Shown: piece after piece, positions 19,168 to 29,906 of the stretch
Numbering within the stretch: position 1 is the stretch's first letter
How the letters are laid out: each line of letters opens with the position of its first letter
From: Klenkia marina
GTDB taxonomy: Bacteria > Actinomycetota > Actinomycetes > Mycobacteriales > Geodermatophilaceae
Reading direction: 5' to 3'
Assembly (NCBI RefSeq): GCF_900101025.1
Contig: NZ_FMUH01000001.1
Coordinates: forward strand, 930,001 to 994,000
DNA: 64,000 nt
Program-made: the position numbers and the translations under genes
The notes under the pieces: model-generated
What the model was told of the DNA's origin: nothing
The model's database searches: none
Seen by the model: only the letters and a program-made list of their open reading frames with translations

Positions 19168-20127
19168 TCAGCCGCCCGCGCCGGCCCGCAACCGGTCCAC
19201 CCACGCCTGGGCCGCACCGAACGCCCCGTCGGCCAGCGGCGCGGGCACCGGCGCGGCCGCCCGACCGTCGGCGCGGGGGTAGGAGCCCAGGAAGCGCACC
19301 TCGTCGCACAGCCGGTGCAGCGCCACCAGGGCGTCGCCGACCCGGGCGTCGGCCAGGTGGCCCTCGCAGTCGAAGGTGAACGAGTAGACGCCCAGCCGCT
19401 GCCGGGTGGGGCGGGAGTCCAGCCGCGTGAGGTTCAGCCCGCGCGAGGCGAGGACGGTCAGCAGGTCCAGCAGCGCGCCGGTGCGGTCGGGCACCGAGCA
19501 GGTCACCGTCGTGCGGTCGGCCCCGGTCGGGGCGGGCAGCCGGCCGGGCCGCTCGACCTGGACGAAGCGGGTGACCGCCCCGGGGGTGTCGGCCAGCCGG
19601 CGGGCGGTGACGTGGAGGCCGTAGCGCTCGGCGGCGAGCTCGGGGCACACGGCCGCGTCCGGTGCGCCGGGGGCCGCCTCGGCGACCAGCCGGGCGGCGT
19701 CCGCGGTCGACGCCGCGGCCACGACCTCGGCGCCCGGGAGGTGCTCGGCCACCCACCCGCGGGTCTGGGCCAGCGCGTGCGGGTGGCTGGCCACCCGGGT
19801 GACCTCCCCCGGGGCGAGCCCGGGGCGCACGCCGAGCACGAAGTCGACCTCGAGGAAGACCTCGCGGGTGATCAGCAGCGGCTCGCCGGCGGCCAGGCCG
19901 TCGACGGTCGGGGAGACCGAACCCTCGACCGAGTTCTCCAGCGGCACGACGGCGGCGTCGACCTCGCCGGCCCGCACGAGGGCCAGCGCGGCGGGCACGC
20001 TGGGGGCCGGCACCGAGCCCCCCTCGGAGGGGGTGCCGAGACTGTGGAGGGCCGCTTCGGTGAAGGTACCCTCGGGCCCCAGAAAGGCGAACCTCGTCGG
20101 GGTCGGCCGCACAGGTTGATCGTGCAT
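19168..20127 (-). CDS. pheA: prephenate dehydratase
   Basis: Converts prephenate to phenylpyruvate in phenylalanine synthesis. The 319-residue protein has the PDT domain (FAFLGPEGTFTEAALHSLGT, VVPLENSVEGSVSPTVDGLA, ARVAS-type block RVASHPHALAQTRGW, GAVTRFVQVERPG). A C-terminal ACT domain (VTCSVPDRTGALLDLLTVLA, then GLNLTRLDSRPTRQRLGVYS) would bind phenylalanine for feedback control; the ESRP-like motif reads DSRP here. ATG 20127 is used; the frame is open upstream but that extension is not conserved in character. Confidence 0.96.
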   Translation of the reverse strand: MHDQPVRPTPTRFAFLGPEGTFTEAALHSLGTPSEGGSVPAPSVPAALALVRAGEVDAAVVPLENSVEGSVSPTVDGLAAGEPLLITREVFLEVDFVLGVRPGLAPGEVTRVASHPHALAQTRGWVAEHLPGAEVVAAASTADAARLVAEAAPGAPDAAVCPELAAERYGLHVTARRLADTPGAVTRFVQVERPGRLPAPTGADRTTVTCSVPDRTGALLDLLTVLASRGLNLTRLDSRPTRQRLGVYSFTFDCEGHLADARVGDALVALHRLCDEVRFLGSYPRADGRAAAPVPAPLADGAFGAAQAWVDRLRAGAGG

Positions 20128-20242: not shown

Positions 20243-22036
20243 GTGACCACCGGCAGCCCGGCTCTCCTCGACGAGGCTGCCCTCTCCCGTGCGCGCTGGG
20301 CCCTGCTCGACGCCAGCGACCGCGAGGACCCCCGCGCGTTCACCGACCGGCTCACCGCGGTCGAGGACGCCCTGGCGGCCGGCGAGGCACCGCGGTGGCT
20401 GGCCTGGTCGCACGCGTTCACCGCCCGCCGCCAGCTCATCGAGCACGACAGCACCGGCGCCGGCCACCACGTCACCGCCGCCCGGGCCGCCCTCGAGGAC
20501 GCCCCGGCCGACGCCGAGCGCGCCCTGCTGCTGGCCTACCTGGCCCACCTCGAGGCCACCGGCGACCGCTTCGAGGCCGCGCTGCACCTGGCCGTCGACG
20601 CCAGCCTGCTCACCGACCAGGTGCCGGCCGACGCCCCCAGCCGCGAGCTGCACCAGGCCCACCACTGGCTGTCCCTGGCCCTCACCCACCTCGACCTCGA
20701 GGAGCTGGCGGTCGCCCAGGCGCTGCGCGGGCACCGGGTCGCCGCCGAGCTCGACGACGACGCGGCCCGCTGGCAGCTGCTGCGGCTGTGCGCCCAGCAG
20801 CACGCCGAGCTGGCGCAGACCGTGCACCGGCGGGGCGACGACGTCCGCGCCGCCCGGCTGGCCGCGGTGGCGCTGCGGTGCTCGTTCACCGCGACCGACG
20901 CCGCCGCCGGCTGCGACTACGAGCCCCCCGACGACGAGGCCGACCTGCTCGCGGTGGTGCACGGCTGGGCGCTGACCCTGACCGGCGACGTCGAGGACAC
21001 GCTGCCGGCCCTGCGGCGGGTGCGCGACCGCATCGCCGCCGAGGGCAGCCCGTGGCTGCGCGGCTACGCCGACCTGGCGCTCTCGCGCCTGCTCTCGCGC
21101 ATCGCCGGCCCGCCCGACGCGCTGGGCGCCGAGGCCGACGAGGCCGCCGACCTGCTCTACGCCGCCGCGAACGCGTTCGCCGGCGCCGGTGACCGGCGCC
21201 GCTACCGCCAGTGCCTGCTCGAGCTGGGCCAGACCACGGCGGCCCTGGGCCGGGCGACGGAGGCGCTGCGGTGGCTCGAGGCCTACCGCACCGAGACCGC
21301 GCGCGCCCACCACGGCAGCCGCGAGCTGTGGGCCGAGATGTTCGTGCGGCGCAGCCGGCTGCGCGAGGCCGAGCGGCAGAACGCGCTCATGCGCCGGCAC
21401 GCCCTCGAGGACCCGCTCACCGGTCTGGGCAACCGCCGCAGCGCCGAGCGCCGGCTCGCCGAGCTCGACCCGGCGTCGAGCCCCGTGGCGTTGGCCGTCG
21501 TGGACATCGACCGGTTCAAGACCGTGAACGACGCCCACTCCCACCTGCACGGCGACGCGGTGCTGCGCCAGCTGGCCGACCTGCTGCGGCAGCACTGCCG
21601 CACCGGCGACGAGGTCTACCGCTGGGCCGGCGACGAGTTCGTGGTGGTGCTGCCCGGCGCACAGGAGGCCCAGGCGGTCGTGGCCATGGAGCGGGTGCGG
21701 GCCGCGGTCGTGGCCTGCGACTGGCCGGCCCTGGGGCTGCGCGCGGCGGTCACGGTCAGCATCGGCATCGCCGTCTCCTCCCCGGGGGCGCCGCGCACCT
21801 GGCGCCAGCTGTTCGACGACGCCGACCTCAACCTCTTCGCCGCCAAGCGGGCCGGCCGCGACACGGTGGCCACCGCGGCCGACGGCGGTCCGGCGGGCTC
21901 CCCGGCCGGACCGCACACCTCGGTCGACGACCTGGTCGTCGAACTGCTCGGGGCCCGGTCGGCGCGCACCCCGGGCTGGGCGTTCGAGCCCGAGGACGCC
22001 GATCCCGGCGACGAACCCGCGGGCGCCGACTCGTGA
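20243..22036 (+). CDS. diguanylate cyclase with helical-repeat sensor
   Basis: A 597-residue cytoplasmic protein. Residues about 1-375 are almost wholly alpha-helical with TPR-like repeats and no TM helix. Residues about 385-555 form a GGDEF domain: EDPLTGLGNRRSAERRLAEL, VVDIDRFKTVNDAHSHLHGD, signature RWAGDEFVVVLPG (A/GGDEF, active type) and SIGIAVSS. An I-site RTGD lies five residues before the signature, so product inhibition by c-di-GMP is expected. GTG 20243 follows a strong GAGGAGGA. The C-terminal tail of about 45 residues is acidic and disordered. It is followed by a paralogue of the same architecture. Confidence 0.93.
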   Translation: MTTGSPALLDEAALSRARWALLDASDREDPRAFTDRLTAVEDALAAGEAPRWLAWSHAFTARRQLIEHDSTGAGHHVTAARAALEDAPADAERALLLAYLAHLEATGDRFEAALHLAVDASLLTDQVPADAPSRELHQAHHWLSLALTHLDLEELAVAQALRGHRVAAELDDDAARWQLLRLCAQQHAELAQTVHRRGDDVRAARLAAVALRCSFTATDAAAGCDYEPPDDEADLLAVVHGWALTLTGDVEDTLPALRRVRDRIAAEGSPWLRGYADLALSRLLSRIAGPPDALGAEADEAADLLYAAANAFAGAGDRRRYRQCLLELGQTTAALGRATEALRWLEAYRTETARAHHGSRELWAEMFVRRSRLREAERQNALMRRHALEDPLTGLGNRRSAERRLAELDPASSPVALAVVDIDRFKTVNDAHSHLHGDAVLRQLADLLRQHCRTGDEVYRWAGDEFVVVLPGAQEAQAVVAMERVRAAVVACDWPALGLRAAVTVSIGIAVSSPGAPRTWRQLFDDADLNLFAAKRAGRDTVATAADGGPAGSPAGPHTSVDDLVVELLGARSARTPGWAFEPEDADPGDEPAGADS

Positions 22037-22160
22037 GGCCCGCGGGGCCACCGGGGCGCACGGGACCCGTGGGACACCCGTGACCCGGCGCAGCCCCCGC
22101 CCCCGGCGTGCCACCGACGGAACACGTGACAGAACGGGTCCACCCGGGCACAGTGCGCTC

Positions 22161-24938
22161 GTGCCACCGGGAATCCTGCACGAGCAGGTCAGCACCGCGC
22201 TGGCCAACTGGCACCTCGACGCCGCCGAGTCGCTGCTCGCCGACGTCGACGCCGACCCCACCCCGGGCGTCGCGCCCGGCGCTCCGCTCACCTCGCTGAG
22301 CCGGGCGTGGTCGGACACGCTGCGCGCCGAGCTGCTGGTGCGCCGGCTGCGCCAGGCGGGCCTCACGCTGCTCGGCGACCCGATCGACGAGTCCGGGGCC
22401 GCCGCGCAGCTGCAGACCACCGACGACGGCGCCCGCTCGGAGTCCGCCGCCCAGGCCGCCGCCGCGATCGCGCTGGTGCGGTCGGCCCGGGCCGCCTTCG
22501 ACGCCACCGACGACGAGCTGCAGCGGGCCGCGGGCCTGGCGCGGCACGCCCGCATCGAGCTGCTCTCCCGCCGGGTCGACGCCGCGATGGACGAGGCGGT
22601 CGAGGCCGCCAGCCTGCTCGACCCCGCCCTGGCGCCCAGCCCGCTGCTCGTGCACACCCTCGGCGCGCTCTCCGGGGTGCTGGCCGACCTCGAGCTGATG
22701 CCGCTGGCCCTGGACTACCAGCGCCGCGCCCACCACACCGCCCTGCGGCTGGCCGAGGACGACCCGGGCCGCGGCTCCCTCGGCCTGGTCGGCGACAGCG
22801 CCGCCCGGCTGGCCGCGCTGTGCGCCGAGGTCGGCGAGGGGCTGCTGGACGACGGCAGCAGCTCCGACGCCGACCCGCACTTCGCCGAGGCCCGGGCGCT
22901 GGCCGAGGAGACCCTCGCCGGACTGCCCGACGACGACCCGCACCGGCCCACCGCCGAGGTCGTGCTGGGCTCGGCGCAGGTCGGGCTGGGCGAGCACGCC
23001 GAGGCCGTCACCACCCTGACCCGGGTCGTCGGCTCGCTGCCGGCCGACCAGGACCGCGCCCTGCTGGCCTCGGCCGAGCTGGCCCTGGGCCGGGCACTGC
23101 GCCGGCAGGACCGCGGCACCGACGCCGACGACCACCTCGCCCGCGCCCTCGCACTGGCCACCGAGCACGGGCTCCCCCGCCTGCGCCGGGCGGCGCTGCG
23201 CGAGCTGTGCACGCTGCACGCCGACCTCGACGACGCCGTCCGGGCACTGCCCTACCTGCAGGCCTACCTGGCCGACGAGCTCGACCGGGTCGACGAGCGC
23301 CGCACCCGCTGGGTCGAGCTGTTCGGCCGGCGCAAGAGCCTGCTGGAGACCGAGCGGGCCGCCGGCCAGCTGCGCCGCCAGGCCTACGAGGACCCGCTGA
23401 CCCACCTGCCCAACAGGCGCTACGCCGAGGGCCGCCTCGACGGCCTGCTGGCCGCCGGCAGCGCCCCCGCCCTCGCCGTCGTGGACATCGACCACTTCAA
23501 GTCGATCAACGACCAGGCCGGCCACCCCGGCGGCGACGCCGTGCTGCGCGCGGTCGCCCAGCTGCTGGTCGACGGCGTGCGCGACACCGACGAGGTCTGC
23601 CGCTGGGCCGGCGACGAGTTCGTGATCCTGCTGCCGGACACCACCGCCGAGCAGGGCGAGCGGGCCATGGAGCGCATCCGGGCCTCCATCGCCACCAACG
23701 ACTGGTCGGCGCTGGGCGTCGACGTCCCCGTCACGATCAGCGTGGGCATCGCCTCCGCCGCCCGCGGCGACGACCGGCGCACCCTGTTCGCCGCGGCCGA
23801 CGGCGTCCTCTACGACGCCAAGCGCAGCGGCCGCGACCGGGTCGTGCGGCTGTCCGGGGTCACCCAGACCCGGGCCGAGGACGGCGGGGTGGACGACGCC
23901 CCCGCGCCCGTCGCCCCGGTGCTGGAGGGCGAGCTGCTCGACCTCGACACGGCCCCCGTCGGTGACACCTCGTCGCCGTCCGGTGCGGATACCGTCACCG
24001 ACGTGCACCCGCAGCGCTCCGTCGACGACCCCGCCGCCCGCACGGCTCGGCCGACCGACGTCCTGTTCGGCGGCCCGCGCGACGTGCCCGCCCCGCGTGT
24101 CGACGACGACCACCGCAGCTCCCGCGAGGGCGAGCGCGACGGGGTCGACGCCCCGGGTGCGGACGCCGCCGGTGGTTTCGGCCGCCTGCTCGTCGAGCCC
24201 GTGCCCGCGCCCGGTGGACCCCGTCCGCAGGGCGGCGGGCGGGTCGTCGGCCCGGCCACCCGCGACGACGGGGCCGGCGAGGGTGCTCTCGACGCCGAGG
24301 CCCAGCCGCCCGCCACCCGCACGGCCACGACCCCCGGGCCCGACGTCGTCCGGGGCGCCGGGCGCAGCACCGAGCAGGTGCTGGCCCTGGTCCGCGAGGC
24401 CCGTCGCGACCACCCGGACCGGCCCGCCGTCGTGGTCGGCGCCAGCGCCGACACCCTGGTGGCCCTGGCCAGCGAGCACGACGCCTACACGACGATGGAC
24501 CACGCGGCGATGGCCGCGGCGGTCGGCCCGGTGCCCGAGCCGCGCGGGCGGGTCGCGGTGCTGAGCGCCGGCGCCGCCGACGCCGCGGTGGCCGCCGAGG
24601 CCGCGTTCGTCGCCCGGGTCGGCGGCGCCGGCACCGTGCGGGTCGACGACGTCTCCGGGTCCCGGCTGCGCGGTCTGCTGGCCGACGGCTCGCTGCTGGC
24701 CGACGTCGACTGCGTGGTGGTCGTGGCCGGGCTCGACGCGGCGCTGGCCTCCACCGTCGCCGGGCTCACCGACGCCCCGGTCGTCGCCGTCCCGACCTCG
24801 ACCGGCCAGGCCGGCGGGTTCGGCGGCATGGGGGCCCTGCTCACGATGCTGAACTCCAGCACGGCCGGGGTCGTGGTCTCCCCCGTCGACGACGGCCACG
24901 CCGCCGGGGTGGTGGCGGCGCGCATCGCCCGCCGCTGA
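22161..24938 (+). CDS. diguanylate cyclase fused to a LarB-like domain
   Basis: A 925-residue single reading frame with three parts. Residues about 1-400 are TPR-like helices resembling the preceding cyclase. Residues about 405-570 are a GGDEF domain (EDPLTHLPNRRYAEGRLDGL, VVDIDHFKSINDQAGHPGGD, RWAGDEFVILLPD) with an I-site RDTD. After a disordered linker of about 150 residues, residues about 725-925 match LarB, the enzyme that carboxylates and hydrolyses NaAD for the nickel-pincer cofactor: DVVRGAGRSTEQVLALV, RVAVLSAGAADAAVAAEAAF, DCVVVVAGLDAALASTVAGL, APVVAVPTSTGQAGGFGGMG, ALLTMLNSSTAG. The LarB cysteine in NSC appears as serine. An in-frame GTG at 22080 is an alternative start; internal GTGs near 24003 could also give a separate LarB product. 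No larC or larE is present. Confidence 0.85.
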   Translation: MPPGILHEQVSTALANWHLDAAESLLADVDADPTPGVAPGAPLTSLSRAWSDTLRAELLVRRLRQAGLTLLGDPIDESGAAAQLQTTDDGARSESAAQAAAAIALVRSARAAFDATDDELQRAAGLARHARIELLSRRVDAAMDEAVEAASLLDPALAPSPLLVHTLGALSGVLADLELMPLALDYQRRAHHTALRLAEDDPGRGSLGLVGDSAARLAALCAEVGEGLLDDGSSSDADPHFAEARALAEETLAGLPDDDPHRPTAEVVLGSAQVGLGEHAEAVTTLTRVVGSLPADQDRALLASAELALGRALRRQDRGTDADDHLARALALATEHGLPRLRRAALRELCTLHADLDDAVRALPYLQAYLADELDRVDERRTRWVELFGRRKSLLETERAAGQLRRQAYEDPLTHLPNRRYAEGRLDGLLAAGSAPALAVVDIDHFKSINDQAGHPGGDAVLRAVAQLLVDGVRDTDEVCRWAGDEFVILLPDTTAEQGERAMERIRASIATNDWSALGVDVPVTISVGIASAARGDDRRTLFAAADGVLYDAKRSGRDRVVRLSGVTQTRAEDGGVDDAPAPVAPVLEGELLDLDTAPVGDTSSPSGADTVTDVHPQRSVDDPAARTARPTDVLFGGPRDVPAPRVDDDHRSSREGERDGVDAPGADAAGGFGRLLVEPVPAPGGPRPQGGGRVVGPATRDDGAGEGALDAEAQPPATRTATTPGPDVVRGAGRSTEQVLALVREARRDHPDRPAVVVGASADTLVALASEHDAYTTMDHAAMAAAVGPVPEPRGRVAVLSAGAADAAVAAEAAFVARVGGAGTVRVDDVSGSRLRGLLADGSLLADVDCVVVVAGLDAALASTVAGLTDAPVVAVPTSTGQAGGFGGMGALLTMLNSSTAGVVVSPVDDGHAAGVVAARIARR

Positions 24939-25155: not shown

Positions 25156-25749
25156 GTGGTCCTGTCGGTCATCGCCGCCGCCTTCATCCTGATCCTCCCG
25201 GTCGAGCTGCCGGACAAGACGCTGTTCGCGACCCTCATCCTGGCCACCCGGTTCGCGCCGCTGCCGGTGTTCGTCGGCGTGGGCACCGCGTTCGCCGTCC
25301 AGTCGGCCATCGCGGTCACCGCCGGCTCGCTGCTGTCGCTGCTGCCCCCGGCGGTGGTCAGCGGCGTCGTCGCGGCGCTGTTCCTGGTCGGCGCCGTGCT
25401 GCTGTGGCGCAGCGCCACCGACGGGCCCGAGGACGGCGGCGAGGCGGCCGACGAGCGCGAGCAGGTGCCCTTCCTCAAGGCCGCCGCGATCTCGTTCGGC
25501 GTGCTCTTCGCCGCCGAGTGGGGCGACCTGTCGCAGCTGGCCACCGCCGGCCTGGCCGCCCGCTACGACGCCCCGCTCTCGGTGTTCCTCGGGTCGTGGG
25601 CCGCGCTGCTGGTCGTCTCGGGCCTGGCCGTCTTCCTGGGCAAGAAGCTCGCCGACCGGCTGCCCATCACCCTGATCCGGCGCGTGGCGGCCGGGTTGTT
25701 CCTGGTCTTCGCGGTCATCGCCGTGGTGGAGACGGTGCGGGCGCTCTGA
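25156..25749 (+). CDS. TMEM165/GDT1 (UPF0016) family cation transporter, probable Mn exporter
   Basis: A 197-residue membrane protein with six predicted helices in two repeats. Each repeat holds the family acidic motif, ELPDKTLFATL in the first and EWGDLSQLATAGL in the second (E-x-x-D). A charged loop rich in Asp/Glu (about residues 92-108) separates the halves. Bacterial members export Mn(II) or exchange cations for protons. The riboswitch upstream supports manganese efflux as the job, induced when Mn is high. GTG 25156 starts directly at the first helix. It converges on an SRPBCC gene 18 bp away. Confidence 0.92.
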   Translation: MVLSVIAAAFILILPVELPDKTLFATLILATRFAPLPVFVGVGTAFAVQSAIAVTAGSLLSLLPPAVVSGVVAALFLVGAVLLWRSATDGPEDGGEAADEREQVPFLKAAAISFGVLFAAEWGDLSQLATAGLAARYDAPLSVFLGSWAALLVVSGLAVFLGKKLADRLPITLIRRVAAGLFLVFAVIAVVETVRAL

Positions 25750-26268: not shown

Positions 26269-26793
26269 TCAGGGGGTCAGGCGTTCGCGCAGCCCCACGG
26301 CCAGCCCCTCGACGGTGAGCCGGTCGGCCGCGCCGCCGAGCACCCGGGCGGCCCTGCGGTGCCGCACCCCGGCCAGCCGCAGCCGCAGCCGCACCCGGGT
26401 GCCCGCGCCCTGCTCGTGCAGCACGATCGCCCACGTCAGGCGGACGTGACCGCGGGTCGAGCGGTGCACGAGCACGTGCGGCGGGGTCATCGTGTGCGCG
26501 GTGAAGGTGGCGTGCCGGCCGCCCCAGTCGGGGATGGTGTCGCCGACCGCCAACCCCAGGAGGGCGGGGTCGAGGTGCCGCAGGCCGCGCCGGGCGCGCG
26601 GCACCACGGCCTCGACCCAGCGGGGCAGGTAGTAGCCGCCGCGACGCTTGCCCAGCTGCACGAACCACGGCCACACCTGCGCCGGCGGTGCGGGCAGGTC
26701 GAAGGCGGTGTCCATGACGACGTCGGCGTCGGGCACGACGTCGTCCCCGGGCAGGACGGCGGCCCGCTCGGCCGCCGTCGGTCGCGCACTCAC
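26269..26793 (-). CDS. SRPBCC-like protein coupled to nadE
   Basis: A 174-residue protein of the SRPBCC type: DTAFDLPAPPAQVWPWFVQL, KRRGGYYLPRWVEAVVPR, GDTIPDWGGRHATFTAHTMT and a C-terminal helical part. The Trp/Tyr-rich WPWFVQLGKRRGGYY stretch is characteristic of an actinobacterial subgroup with no assigned function. GTG 26793 overlaps the nadE stop (GTGA), so it is translated with nadE, but a role in NAD metabolism is only guilt by association. Confidence 0.82.
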   Translation of the reverse strand: MSARPTAAERAAVLPGDDVVPDADVVMDTAFDLPAPPAQVWPWFVQLGKRRGGYYLPRWVEAVVPRARRGLRHLDPALLGLAVGDTIPDWGGRHATFTAHTMTPPHVLVHRSTRGHVRLTWAIVLHEQGAGTRVRLRLRLAGVRHRRAARVLGGAADRLTVEGLAVGLRERLTP

Positions 26794-28814
26794 CCCGGCA
26801 CGTTCGCGCGCAGCTCGGCCAGCCAGAGCGCGGCCGAGCCGTCCGACGGCGCCCGCCAGTCGCCGCGCGGGCTCAGCGAGCCGCCGGCGCTGACCTTCGG
26901 GCCGTTGGGCATCGCCGAGCGCTTGAACTGGCTGAACCCGAAGAAGCGCTGGCAGAAGACCTCGAGCCAGCGCTTGATCTCGGGCAGGTCGTAGGCGACC
27001 TTCTTGGCCTCCGGGTGGGCGTGCGGCCAGTCGCCGGCGGCGGCGTCGTGCCAGGCGTGCCACGCGAGGAAGGCGATCTTGCTCGGCCGGAAGCCGTAGC
27101 GCAGCACGTGGAAGAGCGTGAAGTCCTGCAGCGCGTAGGGGCCGACGCTGGCCTCGGTGGACTGCGCGGTCTCCCCCGGCACCAGCTCGGGGCTGATCTC
27201 GGTGTCGACGATCGACTGCAGGGTGGCGCCGACCTCGTCGTCGAACTGCTCGGTGGCGATGACCCAGCGGATGAGGTGCTGGATGAACGTCTTCGGGATG
27301 CCGCCGTTGACGTTGTAGTGGCTCATCTGGTCGCCCACGCCGTAGGTGGACCACCCCAGCGCGAGCTCGCTGAGGTCGCCGGTGCCCAGCACGATGCCGC
27401 CGCGCTGGTTGGCGATCCGGAACAGGTAGTCGGTGCGCAGGCCGGCCTGCACGTTCTCGAAGGTGACGTCGTAGACGGGCTCGCCCGACCCGGCGGGGTG
27501 GCCCATGTTCTGCAGCATCAGCGTCGCGGTGGGCTGGATGTCCAGCTCCGCGGCGGTCACGCCGAGGGCGCGCATGAGGTCCCAGGCGTTGCCCTTGGTG
27601 TGGTCGCTGGTGGCGAAGCCGGGCATGGTGAAGGCGAGGACGTCGCTGCGCGGCCGCCCCGCCTTGTCCATCACCTGGGCGGCGACGATCAGGGCGTGGG
27701 TGGAGTCCAGCCCGCCGCTCACGCCGATGACGATCTTCGGGTCGCCGATGGCCGACAGGCGCTGGGCCAGGCCGGCGACCTGGATGTTGTAGGCCTCGTA
27801 GCAGTCCTGCTCGAGACGGGCGTCGTCGCTGGGCACGAACGGGAACCGCTCGAGCTCGCGGCGCAGGCCGAGGTCGGCGTCCGGCGGGTCGAGGGTGAAC
27901 TCGACGGTGCGCACCTGCGGGTCGTGGTGGCGGCGGTTGTCGTCGAAGGTGCCCATCCGGGCCCGCTCCTGGCGGAGCAGGTCGAGGTCGACGTCGGCCA
28001 CCGCCCGGCGGTCGCCGTCGGGGAAGCGGTCGGTCTCGGCGAGCAGGACGCCGTTCTCGTAGACCAGCGTCTGGCCGTCCCAGGACAGGTCGGTGGTCGA
28101 CTCGCCCTCGCCGGCGGCGGCGTAGACGTAGGCGGCCAGGCAGCGGCTGGACGCCGACCGGACGAGCAGGCGACGGTCCTCGGCCCGGCCCACGGTGATC
28201 GGCGACCCGGACAGGTTGACCAGCACGGTCGCGCCGGCGAGCGCGGCCTCGGCGGACGGCGGGATCGGCACCCACATGTCCTCGCAGACCTCGGCGTGCA
28301 GCACGAGCCCCGGGACGTCGGTGGCGGCGAAGAGCAGGTCGGGGCCGAACGGGACCTTCTGGCCGCCGACGGTGATCTCCCCGCCGGCCTGGTCGTCGCC
28401 GGGGGCGAGCTGGCGGCGCTCGTAGAACTCGCGGTAGGTGGGCAGGTAGGACTTGGGCGCGACGCCGAGCACCCGCCCCCGGTGGACCACGACCGCGCAG
28501 TTGTAGATGCGGTTGCGGTGCCGGAGGGGGGCGCCGACGACGAGCACCGGGAGCAGGTCCCGCGACCCCTCGACCAGCGTCTGCAGCGCGGTCTCGACGG
28601 CGTCCAGCAAGGGGTCCTGGAGCAGCAGGTCGTCGATCGAGTAGCCCGACAGCGTGAGCTCCGGGAACACCGCGACGGCGACGCCCTCGTCGGAGCAGGC
28701 CCGGGCCTGGCGCAGCACGGACTCGGCGTTCGCCGCCGGGTCGGCCAGGGCGGTGCGCTGCGTGCACGCGGCCACCCGCGCGAACCCGTGCCGGTAGAGC
28801 GAGGTGAACCCCAT
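26790..28814 (-). CDS. nadE: glutamine-dependent NAD+ synthetase
   Basis: Last step of NAD synthesis, amidating deamido-NAD with glutamine and ATP. The 674-residue protein has an N-terminal nitrilase-type glutaminase domain: FPELTLSGYSIDDLLLQD with the catalytic Glu, APKSYLPTYREFYERRQ with the Lys, and HAEVCEDMWVPIPP with the Cys. The C-terminal synthetase domain has the PP-loop IGVSGGLDSTHALIVAA, NMGHPAGSGEPVYDVTFENV and GTGDLSELALGWSTYGVGDQ. Length and order match the mycobacterial NadE. ATG 28814. It is the first gene of a pair with the SRPBCC protein. Confidence 0.96.
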   Translation of the reverse strand: MGFTSLYRHGFARVAACTQRTALADPAANAESVLRQARACSDEGVAVAVFPELTLSGYSIDDLLLQDPLLDAVETALQTLVEGSRDLLPVLVVGAPLRHRNRIYNCAVVVHRGRVLGVAPKSYLPTYREFYERRQLAPGDDQAGGEITVGGQKVPFGPDLLFAATDVPGLVLHAEVCEDMWVPIPPSAEAALAGATVLVNLSGSPITVGRAEDRRLLVRSASSRCLAAYVYAAAGEGESTTDLSWDGQTLVYENGVLLAETDRFPDGDRRAVADVDLDLLRQERARMGTFDDNRRHHDPQVRTVEFTLDPPDADLGLRRELERFPFVPSDDARLEQDCYEAYNIQVAGLAQRLSAIGDPKIVIGVSGGLDSTHALIVAAQVMDKAGRPRSDVLAFTMPGFATSDHTKGNAWDLMRALGVTAAELDIQPTATLMLQNMGHPAGSGEPVYDVTFENVQAGLRTDYLFRIANQRGGIVLGTGDLSELALGWSTYGVGDQMSHYNVNGGIPKTFIQHLIRWVIATEQFDDEVGATLQSIVDTEISPELVPGETAQSTEASVGPYALQDFTLFHVLRYGFRPSKIAFLAWHAWHDAAAGDWPHAHPEAKKVAYDLPEIKRWLEVFCQRFFGFSQFKRSAMPNGPKVSAGGSLSPRGDWRAPSDGSAALWLAELRANVPG

Positions 28815-28892
28815 GGTGATCAGTGTCCCGCGCCCGCCGCCCGCCGTCCTGCCGCCCTCCCCCGGCGGGGTGGCGCAGCGATGATCAGGGGG

Positions 28893-29021
28893 GGTGCACC
28901 ATCGTCCGTCCCGGAGGCGACCTGGTGCACGTCGGTTGCGGGGTTCTTGCCCCCTCCCTGGGTCCGCAGGGGACGAGAAGCCCGCAACCGGCATGCATCG
29001 ACGTGCACTCGCCTGGTGCAC
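28893..29021. promoter_or_regulatory. repeat-rich putative control region upstream of kynA
   Basis: The 216-bp divergent region between nadE and kynA holds four GTGCAC hexamers (28894-28899, 28925-28930, 29003-29008, 29016-29021), the first inside the palindrome GGTGCACC. It also has an inverted repeat CGGTTGCGGG (28933-28942) with CCCGCAACCG (28981-28990), flanked by TGCACGT and ACGTGCA. The last hexamer ends nine bases before the kynA ATG. This could be an operator array or a stem in the leader; no regulator is identified. Confidence 0.4.
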
Positions 29022-29030
29022 GATGCGGGC

Positions 29031-29906
29031 ATGAGCGAGCACGCGGGCGAGCGGCCCATCGAGGCGGGGATCCGGACCGATCTGCGGGACACGATGAGCT
29101 ACGGGGGCTACCTCGACCTCGACCGGCTGCTCTCGGCACAGCACCCGGTCAGCGTCCCCGAGCACCACGACGAGCTGCTGTTCATCATCCAGCACCAGAC
29201 CACCGAGCTCTGGTTCAAGCTGGTGCTGCACGAGCTGCGGGCGGTGCGCGCGAACCTCGACGCCGACGACCCCGCACGTGCACGCAAGGGCCTGGCCCGG
29301 GTCAAGCACATCTTCCGCACCCTGGCCGAGCAGTGGTCGGTGCTGGCCACCCTCACCCCCAGCGAGTACGCCGAGTTCCGCGGGTCGCTGGGCAGCTCGT
29401 CGGGCTTCCAGTCGCACCAGTACCGCGCCGTCGAGTTCATCCTCGGCAACAAGAACGCCGGCATGCTGACGGTCTTCGACGCCGACCCCGCCGCCCGCGC
29501 CGTGCTCGCCGAGCTGCTGGACTCCCCCACCGTCTACGACGCGTTCCTGCGCCACCTCGCCCGCCAGGGCCACGCCGTCCCCGACGAGGTGCTGCACCGC
29601 GACGTCCGGCAGGCCTGGACGATGCACGAGCACCTGGTCCCTGTGGTCCGCCGCATCTACGACGACACCGAGACGCACTGGGCCGACTACGCCACCTGCG
29701 AGGACCTCGTCGACATCGAGGACGCCTTCCAGTTCTGGCGGTTCCGGCACCTGCGCACCGTGCAGCGCACCATCGGCTTCACCACCGGCACCGGGGGCTC
29801 GTCCGGCGCGTCCTTCCTCCGCCGCGCCCTGGACCTCACCTTCTTCCCCGAGCTCTACGAGGTCCGCACCGGCATCGGCGCCTCCGCCACCCCTCCTCGC
29901 AGGTGA
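29031..29906 (+). CDS. kynA: tryptophan 2,3-dioxygenase
   Basis: Haem enzyme that opens the indole ring of L-tryptophan to N-formylkynurenine. The 291-residue protein shows the TDO blocks MSYGGYLDLDRLLSAQHPVS, HHDELLFIIQHQTTELWFKL (distal substrate contacts), GSSSGFQSHQYRAVEFILGN, and WRFRHLRTVQRTIGFTTGTG with the proximal haem histidine in FRHLRTVQR. ATG 29031 fits the family start but lacks a good Shine-Dalgarno. No formamidase or kynureninase gene lies nearby, so the rest of the pathway must be elsewhere. Its stop codon is inside a 16-bp inverted repeat. Confidence 0.96.
   Translation: MSEHAGERPIEAGIRTDLRDTMSYGGYLDLDRLLSAQHPVSVPEHHDELLFIIQHQTTELWFKLVLHELRAVRANLDADDPARARKGLARVKHIFRTLAEQWSVLATLTPSEYAEFRGSLGSSSGFQSHQYRAVEFILGNKNAGMLTVFDADPAARAVLAELLDSPTVYDAFLRHLARQGHAVPDEVLHRDVRQAWTMHEHLVPVVRRIYDDTETHWADYATCEDLVDIEDAFQFWRFRHLRTVQRTIGFTTGTGGSSGASFLRRALDLTFFPELYEVRTGIGASATPPRR

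Follow-up and report, generated by a model that had tools for sequence, protein, structure and literature searches.

A predicted diguanylate cyclase of Klenkia marina and its relatives carries a fused LarB domain that lacks the catalytic-type cysteine

We analysed a gene in a stretch of 64,000 nucleotides from Klenkia marina (contig NZ_FMUH01000001.1, positions 930,001 to 994,000 of the forward strand), referred to below as the window. The gene joins TPR-like helices, a GGDEF domain and a domain related to LarB, the nicotinic acid adenine dinucleotide (NaAD) carboxylase/hydrolase of nickel-pincer cofactor synthesis. The fusion recurs in dozens of genomes of the Geodermatophilaceae, a family of soil and stone bacteria, and every fused LarB that reaches the site lacks the cysteine found there in stand-alone LarBs. 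The protein is probably a diguanylate cyclase in which a retired LarB serves as a non-catalytic regulatory module, setting the activity or the assembly of the cyclase, and no nickel-pincer cofactor would be made by it. We found no earlier description of this fusion in our searches of the open-access literature on LarB, alone and with GGDEF, on cyclic di-GMP (c-di-GMP) in the Geodermatophilaceae or on NAD (nicotinamide adenine dinucleotide) pseudoenzyme cyclases.

Results

The fusion gene and its domains

The features of the gene are listed below. The signature, the I-site, single residues and coordinates are given on the numbering of the full window and of the 925-residue protein.

22161..24938, + strand: whole fusion gene, TPR - GGDEF - linker - LarB-like, 925 aa, calculated mass 95.5 kDa (open frame and domain matches)
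22161..23360, + strand: TPR-like helical region, residues 1-400, with a long terminal helix entering the GGDEF domain (model and weak TPR matches)
23382..23840, + strand: GGDEF domain, residues 408-560 (PF00990)
23580, + strand: I-site RDTD, residue 474
23607, + strand: AGDEF signature, residue 483
23856..24320, + strand: linker rich in proline and alanine, 155 residues (no Pfam match)
24171, + strand: GGFGRLLVEP motif inside the linker
24318..24935, + strand: LarB-like domain without the catalytic cysteine (NF033503, alignment to PDB LarB, model)
24858, + strand: Ser900 at the Cys221 position (alignment to PDB LarB)
24576, + strand: Ala806 at the Ser127 position (alignment to PDB LarB)

The frame is open without interruption over its 925 codons, as a preliminary description made from the sequence alone had stated. 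An alternative in-frame GTG start is possible at 22080. The stretch V-P-P-G-x-L, which begins at 22161, is kept in every homologue row that reaches this end (7 of 9 rows, window included), and this supports the start at 22161. Just 5' of the GTG at 22161, the residues HSAL (22149-22160) are also present in Klenkia relatives and in one Geodermatophilus locus (L111); they may reflect a conserved element of the DNA, or translation may begin further upstream.

The GGDEF domain matches PF00990 with E=4.9e-39 and 134.1 bits. Its signature and I-site, both described as intact in the preliminary description, are indeed so, the RxxD motif (RDTD) lying five residues ahead of AGDEF. Among 79 fusions the signature is AGDEF in 75 and AGDEY in the remaining four, while RxxD is found in 75 out of 75 fusions caught by the motif pattern. 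With its active-site signature, the domain of the window is a predicted diguanylate cyclase. The signature and the RxxD I-site are shared with the GGDEF cyclases that carry sensory domains (PF00990), from which the protein of the window differs by its LarB-derived C-terminal module. We know of no LarB-type partner domain for GGDEF diguanylate cyclases.

For the N-terminal region all TPR matches are below the Pfam cut-off, including TPR_MalT with E=1.4e-5. The AlphaFold model of this part is almost entirely helical with a mean predicted local distance difference test score (pLDDT) of 72, residues 78-139 being poorly predicted. Its closest PDB matches are TPR proteins, with E about 1e-5 and a template modelling score (TM-score) below 0.5 by query length. 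This part is thus modelled, with moderate confidence, as a helical solenoid. A Pfam profile search of the linker gave no match. Linker lengths range from 66 to 171 aa in the 79 fusions, and a GFxxL-type motif is found in 76 of them. This motif, GGFGRLLVEP in the window, is similar to LGFAxLD, with which stand-alone LarB begins, and could be what is left of it.

The C-terminal domain is modelled as a full-length LarB fold

The homology to LarB that the preliminary description had seen in the sequence is borne out, over the whole fold, by profile search and by structure prediction. The NCBIfam LarB model NF033503 matches residues 720-924 with E=1.8e-38, scoring 132.3 bits for the whole protein and 137.6 bits for the domain alone; the match is significant. 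Both scores are under the equivalog cut-off of 175 bits; the stand-alone LarBs of loci L164 and L161 reach 255 and 250 bits. Two other LarBs of the fused type exceed the cut-off (178.7 bits in G093 and 177.3 bits in G090). In a sequence search of the PDB, the domain matches LarB entries 8soq (3e-29) and 7mj0 (6e-29). An AlphaFold model of the domain has a pLDDT of 86.6, and when it is compared with the PDB by Foldseek, LarB entries come first (8std, TM-score 0.82) and PurE follows at 0.4-0.5. The model thus predicts that the LarB fold is kept over its full length.

We also considered PurE, the AIR (5-aminoimidazole ribonucleotide) carboxylase, which has the core fold in common with the domain. 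The Pfam AIRC model PF00731 matches residues 848-923 with 31.9 bits against a cut-off of 30. However, the PurE model TIGR01162 gives 24.9 bits against a cut-off of 149.6. As both profile scores and fold favour LarB, we reject a PurE identity.

In the Foldseek alignments the identity to LarB (NF033503; PDB 7mj0, 7mj1, 8soq and 8std) is 35-37%. The domain of the window differs from these proteins in that it lacks Cys221, Ser127 and an intact N-terminal LGFAxLD segment, in that it is fused to a cyclase, and in that its genome has no LarC or LarE match.

Fused LarBs have lost the catalytic-type cysteine

LarB domains were aligned to the Lactiplantibacillus plantarum LarB of the PDB, whose chain numbering places the cysteine of the LNSC motif at 221. 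We take Cys221 to be the catalytic residue, bearing the cysteinyl-pyridine intermediate. All 51 stand-alone LarBs that extend to this column have a cysteine in it (L179 falls short), and it is the sole cysteine conserved in all of them. Of the 89 fused LarBs that extend to it, none has one (L132 falls short). The 89 rows include three duplicate loci; the count is 0 out of 86 rows with a residue when these are removed.

Other positions have changed as well. Among 82 uncut fused rows, 75 have Ala or Gly at the Ser127 position, 81 have Arg for Lys57 and 64 have Gln for Tyr204. Glu134 is retained in all 82 and Asp128 in 80. The Thr200-Ser201 pair is kept in nearly all fused rows. The stand-alone LarBs share 67 conserved sites. 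In the fused ones, 31 of these are retained at a level of at least 90%, five are fixed for another residue, ten no longer have the original residue but are not fixed for a new one, and the remainder is intermediate. Together, the alignment suggests that the fused LarB is a dead enzyme which has lost its catalytic-type cysteine. In the fused clade two other cysteines are common, at L. plantarum positions 172 (nearly invariant, 86/87 rows, compared with 15/51 in stand-alone LarBs) and 123 (65/87 and 4/51, respectively).

The fusion recurs across the family

With a guanine-cytosine content like this one, the two alternative frames across the linker hold 0 and 1 stops, and an open frame is therefore weak evidence by itself. 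The strong evidence comes from recurrence. In a scan of named genomes, taking the best 80 loci of 207 returned, GGDEF and LarB share one frame in 72; six others start at a contig end, and in the remaining two (Marmoricola) LarB stands alone. All fetched loci that hold both domains number 102, of which 85 are distinct Geodermatophilaceae loci, and in 83 of the latter the two domains are in one frame. The fusion is real, and a sequencing or assembly artefact is ruled out by its recurrence across dozens of genomes. As loci were chosen by their LarB match, cyclase genes that have lost LarB cannot appear in these counts.

The two exceptions are L070 (G091) and L185 (G055), where GGDEF and LarB lie in different frames; at a further locus, L186 (G040), the break is between TPR and GGDEF. 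The genomes concerned consist of one or two contigs, and the frame breaks are either real or sequencing errors.

If the LarB part were made also, or solely, from an internal start, two separate proteins would result. The differing frames of L070 and L185 could be taken in this way. Six GTG codons lie in frame from 23850 to 24420, and the one at 23889, which is the sole one with a GAGG stretch just upstream at a fitting distance, as judged by eye, could be taken likewise. The other five GTG codons have no evident ribosome site by the same inspection, none of the four other Klenkia examined has a start codon where 23889 lies, and the single frame is kept at 83 of the 85 distinct loci. We therefore regard separate proteins as very improbable.

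Outside the family, 119 of the 348 genomes in the order scan gave a match, as did 86 of the 394 in the class scan; the two scans partly overlap. No GGDEF match was found in the LarB frame among 33 non-family cases, comprising 16 genomes of the order scan, 13 long-frame loci from both scans and four further loci of the class scan. Within the family, the nine genomes of genera g6, g7 and g8 (five of them under 90% complete) yielded no fusion gene; their LarB is stand-alone.

A LarB of the fused type is kept in genomes without a detectable nickel-pincer pathway

The genome of the window (G000) has 4.2 Mb and belongs to the same genus as G008 and G002. It has no match to LarC at E<=1e-3, to LarE at E<=1e-30 or to LarA at E<=1e-10. 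No second LarB was found in it either; its two AIRC matches are one strong PurE-like protein and the fusion gene. With the catalytic-type cysteine gone and no pathway matches in the genome, LarB chemistry under the control of the cyclase, which the preliminary description had offered as one possible function, is unsupported. An active NaAD carboxylase/hydrolase under cyclase control is barely credible: the whole LarB fold is kept, and nearly all fused rows retain Asp128, Glu134 and the Thr200-Ser201 pair, but all 89 fused rows are without the cysteine, most have Ala or Gly in place of Ser127, and the cofactor genes have no match at the thresholds used.

Among 112 genomes of the family, a LarB-type match (E<=1e-20) is found in 111, LarC in 82, LarE in 72 and LarA in 35. 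For further counts we used the 96 near-complete genomes (at least 90% complete), leaving out 16, in a presence/absence table compiled by hand from the profile-search outputs. A LarB was counted as stand-alone if its match exceeded 175 bits and began at position 1 or 2 of the profile; this class includes G043, which is cut by a contig end, and excludes G090 and G093, which are above the cut-off and of the fused type. Stand-alone LarB, LarE and LarC are all present in 60 of the 96 genomes and all absent from 29, while six have LarC only and one lacks only LarE.

A divergent LarB of the fused type is kept in 28 of the 29 genomes that lack all three. In the 29th, G005, the contig ends in the linker, 70 bases past the matched stretch, so that any LarB part would lie beyond the contig. 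Thirteen of the 28 were examined as loci, and the other 15 rest on match and score, some of them as given in the genome table. The divergent LarB is thus kept without detectable cofactor synthesis, which suggests a regulatory role in signalling.

In 45 out of 85 distinct fused loci a LarC gene follows the fusion on the same strand, in 30 of them within 300 bp. In species that keep the pathway, the pseudo-LarB could join an active LarB or LarC and tie cofactor synthesis to c-di-GMP. The position of LarC fits this idea, and in many genomes with LarC there, stand-alone LarB and LarE are distant from it or on a different contig. However, it is inapplicable to the genome of the window and to the 28 near-complete pathway-less genomes with a divergent LarB, and we consider it quite unlikely.

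Three further observations concern the distribution of the pathway. Five genomes of genus g2 (G010, G019, G021 with locus L058, G023 and G026) have LarC and neither stand-alone LarB nor LarE; their LarC scores are low, 312-362 bits compared with about 400-446 in most others, and LarC may be decaying or reused there. G091 (L179, L180) has four LarB-type and three LarE matches, one of the LarB matches ending before the cysteine. A LarA match (E<=1e-10) is found in 30 out of 61 near-complete genomes with a stand-alone LarB, and in the remaining ones the cofactor may be used by another protein.

The LarB domain is under purifying selection

We estimated ratios of nonsynonymous to synonymous substitution rates (dN/dS) by the pairwise Nei-Gojobori method, per domain, in four sets of fused loci. 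For the LarB domain the ratio is 0.32 among five Klenkia, which lack the pathway, and 0.25 among ten Geodermatophilus-type loci that have no LarC. Seven Modestobacter with LarC at the locus give 0.16 and three Modestobacter without it give 0.07, the slowest. For several named species the label with or without pathway was assigned by LarC at the locus only. Elsewhere in the fusion the ratio is 0.06-0.13 for GGDEF (0.06 in the five Klenkia), 0.20-0.33 for TPR and, in the linker, 0.57-0.68. A single control set, made up of stand-alone LarBs from Geodermatophilus, gives 0.17. In each of the four sets the LarB domain is far under the linker and about equal to or below the TPR part; in Klenkia it about equals the adjoining TPR part (0.32). 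The LarB domain is under purifying selection.

These values bear on whether the LarB part is a passenger, a non-functional leftover of the gene joining that folds and is harmless. Loss of the catalytic residues would agree with this, as would the weaker constraint in Klenkia than in Modestobacter with LarC. A passenger is nevertheless unlikely in view of the low ratios in all four sets, the 31 of 67 conserved sites that are kept and the five re-fixed, and the 28 pathway-less genomes that keep the LarB part.

Origin and gene neighbourhood

In a tree of 139 LarB rows, all 87 fused rows fall on one side of a branch of length 0.48 with support 100/100, in a bootstrap that was not fully converged. 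The fused LarBs form one clade. One record, L123, is titled Bacillus sp. AZ43 (UNVERIFIED_ORG); its LarB groups with the fused LarBs of Blastococcus, and the label is probably wrong.

The neighbouring genes in the window are:

20243..22036, + strand: upstream tandem TPR-GGDEF gene without LarB (PF00990, E=1.8e-34)
19168..20115, - strand: pheA, prephenate dehydratase, divergent (PF00800, E=1.5e-47)
25156..25749, + strand: downstream gene for a GDT1-type divalent cation antiporter (PF01169, E=8.6e-41)

The gene order at fused loci is a divergent pheA, then, all on the strand opposite to it, TPR-GGDEF, TPR-GGDEF-LarB and, where present, larC, mostly followed by the GDT1 gene. The upstream TPR-GGDEF gene is found at 82 of the 85 distinct loci, the other three (L087, L089, L091) starting inside the fusion gene. 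pheA is found at 82 and the GDT1 gene at 73 of the loci; the latter was not seen in Klenkia loci L187 and L188.

Elsewhere in the order, loci of other families (L161-L166, L168, L169) have a divergent pheA followed by larB and larC, with LarB standing alone, as does one locus in genus g8 of the same family (L194). This order is the ancestral one, with pheA as its anchor. These loci have the same place and the same order minus the cyclase genes. Their LarBs are stand-alone with Cys221 present, whereas the LarB of the window is fused and lacks it.

Further downstream in the window (26790-29906) are genes for an NAD synthase of the NadE type, which uses NaAD, and for tryptophan 2,3-dioxygenase. 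NadE is nearby only in Klenkia-type and Goekera loci, within the fetched flanks, and the case for it as a conserved partner is therefore weak.

Discussion

We propose that the fusion probably arose in an ancestor of most of the family, when a TPR-GGDEF gene became linked in frame with larB in a larB-larC operon next to pheA. Its LarB part would then have lost its catalytic cysteine and become a non-enzymatic module for the activity or the assembly of the cyclase. The cyclase would be active; the TPR part may receive one input, and the LarB part may give a second, by self-association of its PurE-like core and/or by binding an adenine dinucleotide (NaAD, NAD). The c-di-GMP would feed known effectors such as RsiG.

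GGDEF enzymes work as dimers and folds of the PurE type self-associate; a LarB core on a flexible tether could thus drive assembly of the cyclase. LarB acts on NaAD (PMC11796402, PMC9283937), and its structures have been solved with NAD and with adenosine monophosphate, going by the titles of the PDB entries matched by Foldseek; a dead LarB could therefore still bind such a ligand. Twin-motif RsiG, a c-di-GMP effector, is reported in 16 out of 16 Geodermatophilaceae species (PMC8325347). The idea of a sensor of NaAD/NAD status, raised in the preliminary description, is compatible with our data. Given a regulatory LarB module, dinucleotide sensing is a tentative option, and plain oligomerisation is another, held just as tentatively. 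The more specific proposal that a LarB-derived pseudoenzyme acts as an NaAD/NAD receptor gating the diguanylate cyclase, through which the majority of the family couples pyridine-nucleotide status to c-di-GMP, is somewhat unlikely.

Four points weigh against a regulatory LarB module. First, the Klenkia LarB domain, in genomes without the pathway, evolves faster than that of Modestobacter with LarC (0.32 vs 0.16). Second, the residues lost in fused LarBs include Ser127, Tyr204 and Arg159, and Lys57 has become Arg; if these residues hold the dinucleotide, its binding may have been lost. Third, a tie to the cofactor pathway may persist at the 45 loci where LarC lies 3' of the fused gene. Finally, all functional steps after the fusion (ligand, oligomeric state and cyclase activity) are inferred.

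Genes of this kind match AIRC/LarB models, yet by themselves they do not indicate nickel-pincer cofactor synthesis, which calls for caution in annotation. Dozens of genomes keep the LarB module, some with and some without its old pathway. The family therefore offers a natural test of the conversion of an enzyme to a regulator, as the fused LarBs form one clade and stand-alone relatives that still have the cysteine occupy the ancestral place. Diguanylate cyclases are characterised by the sensory domains with which they are combined, and a dead cofactor-synthesis enzyme would, if the proposal is true, be a new one. Should the LarB part indeed sense NaAD or NAD, pyridine-nucleotide status would be linked to c-di-GMP across most of these actinobacteria of desert and stone.

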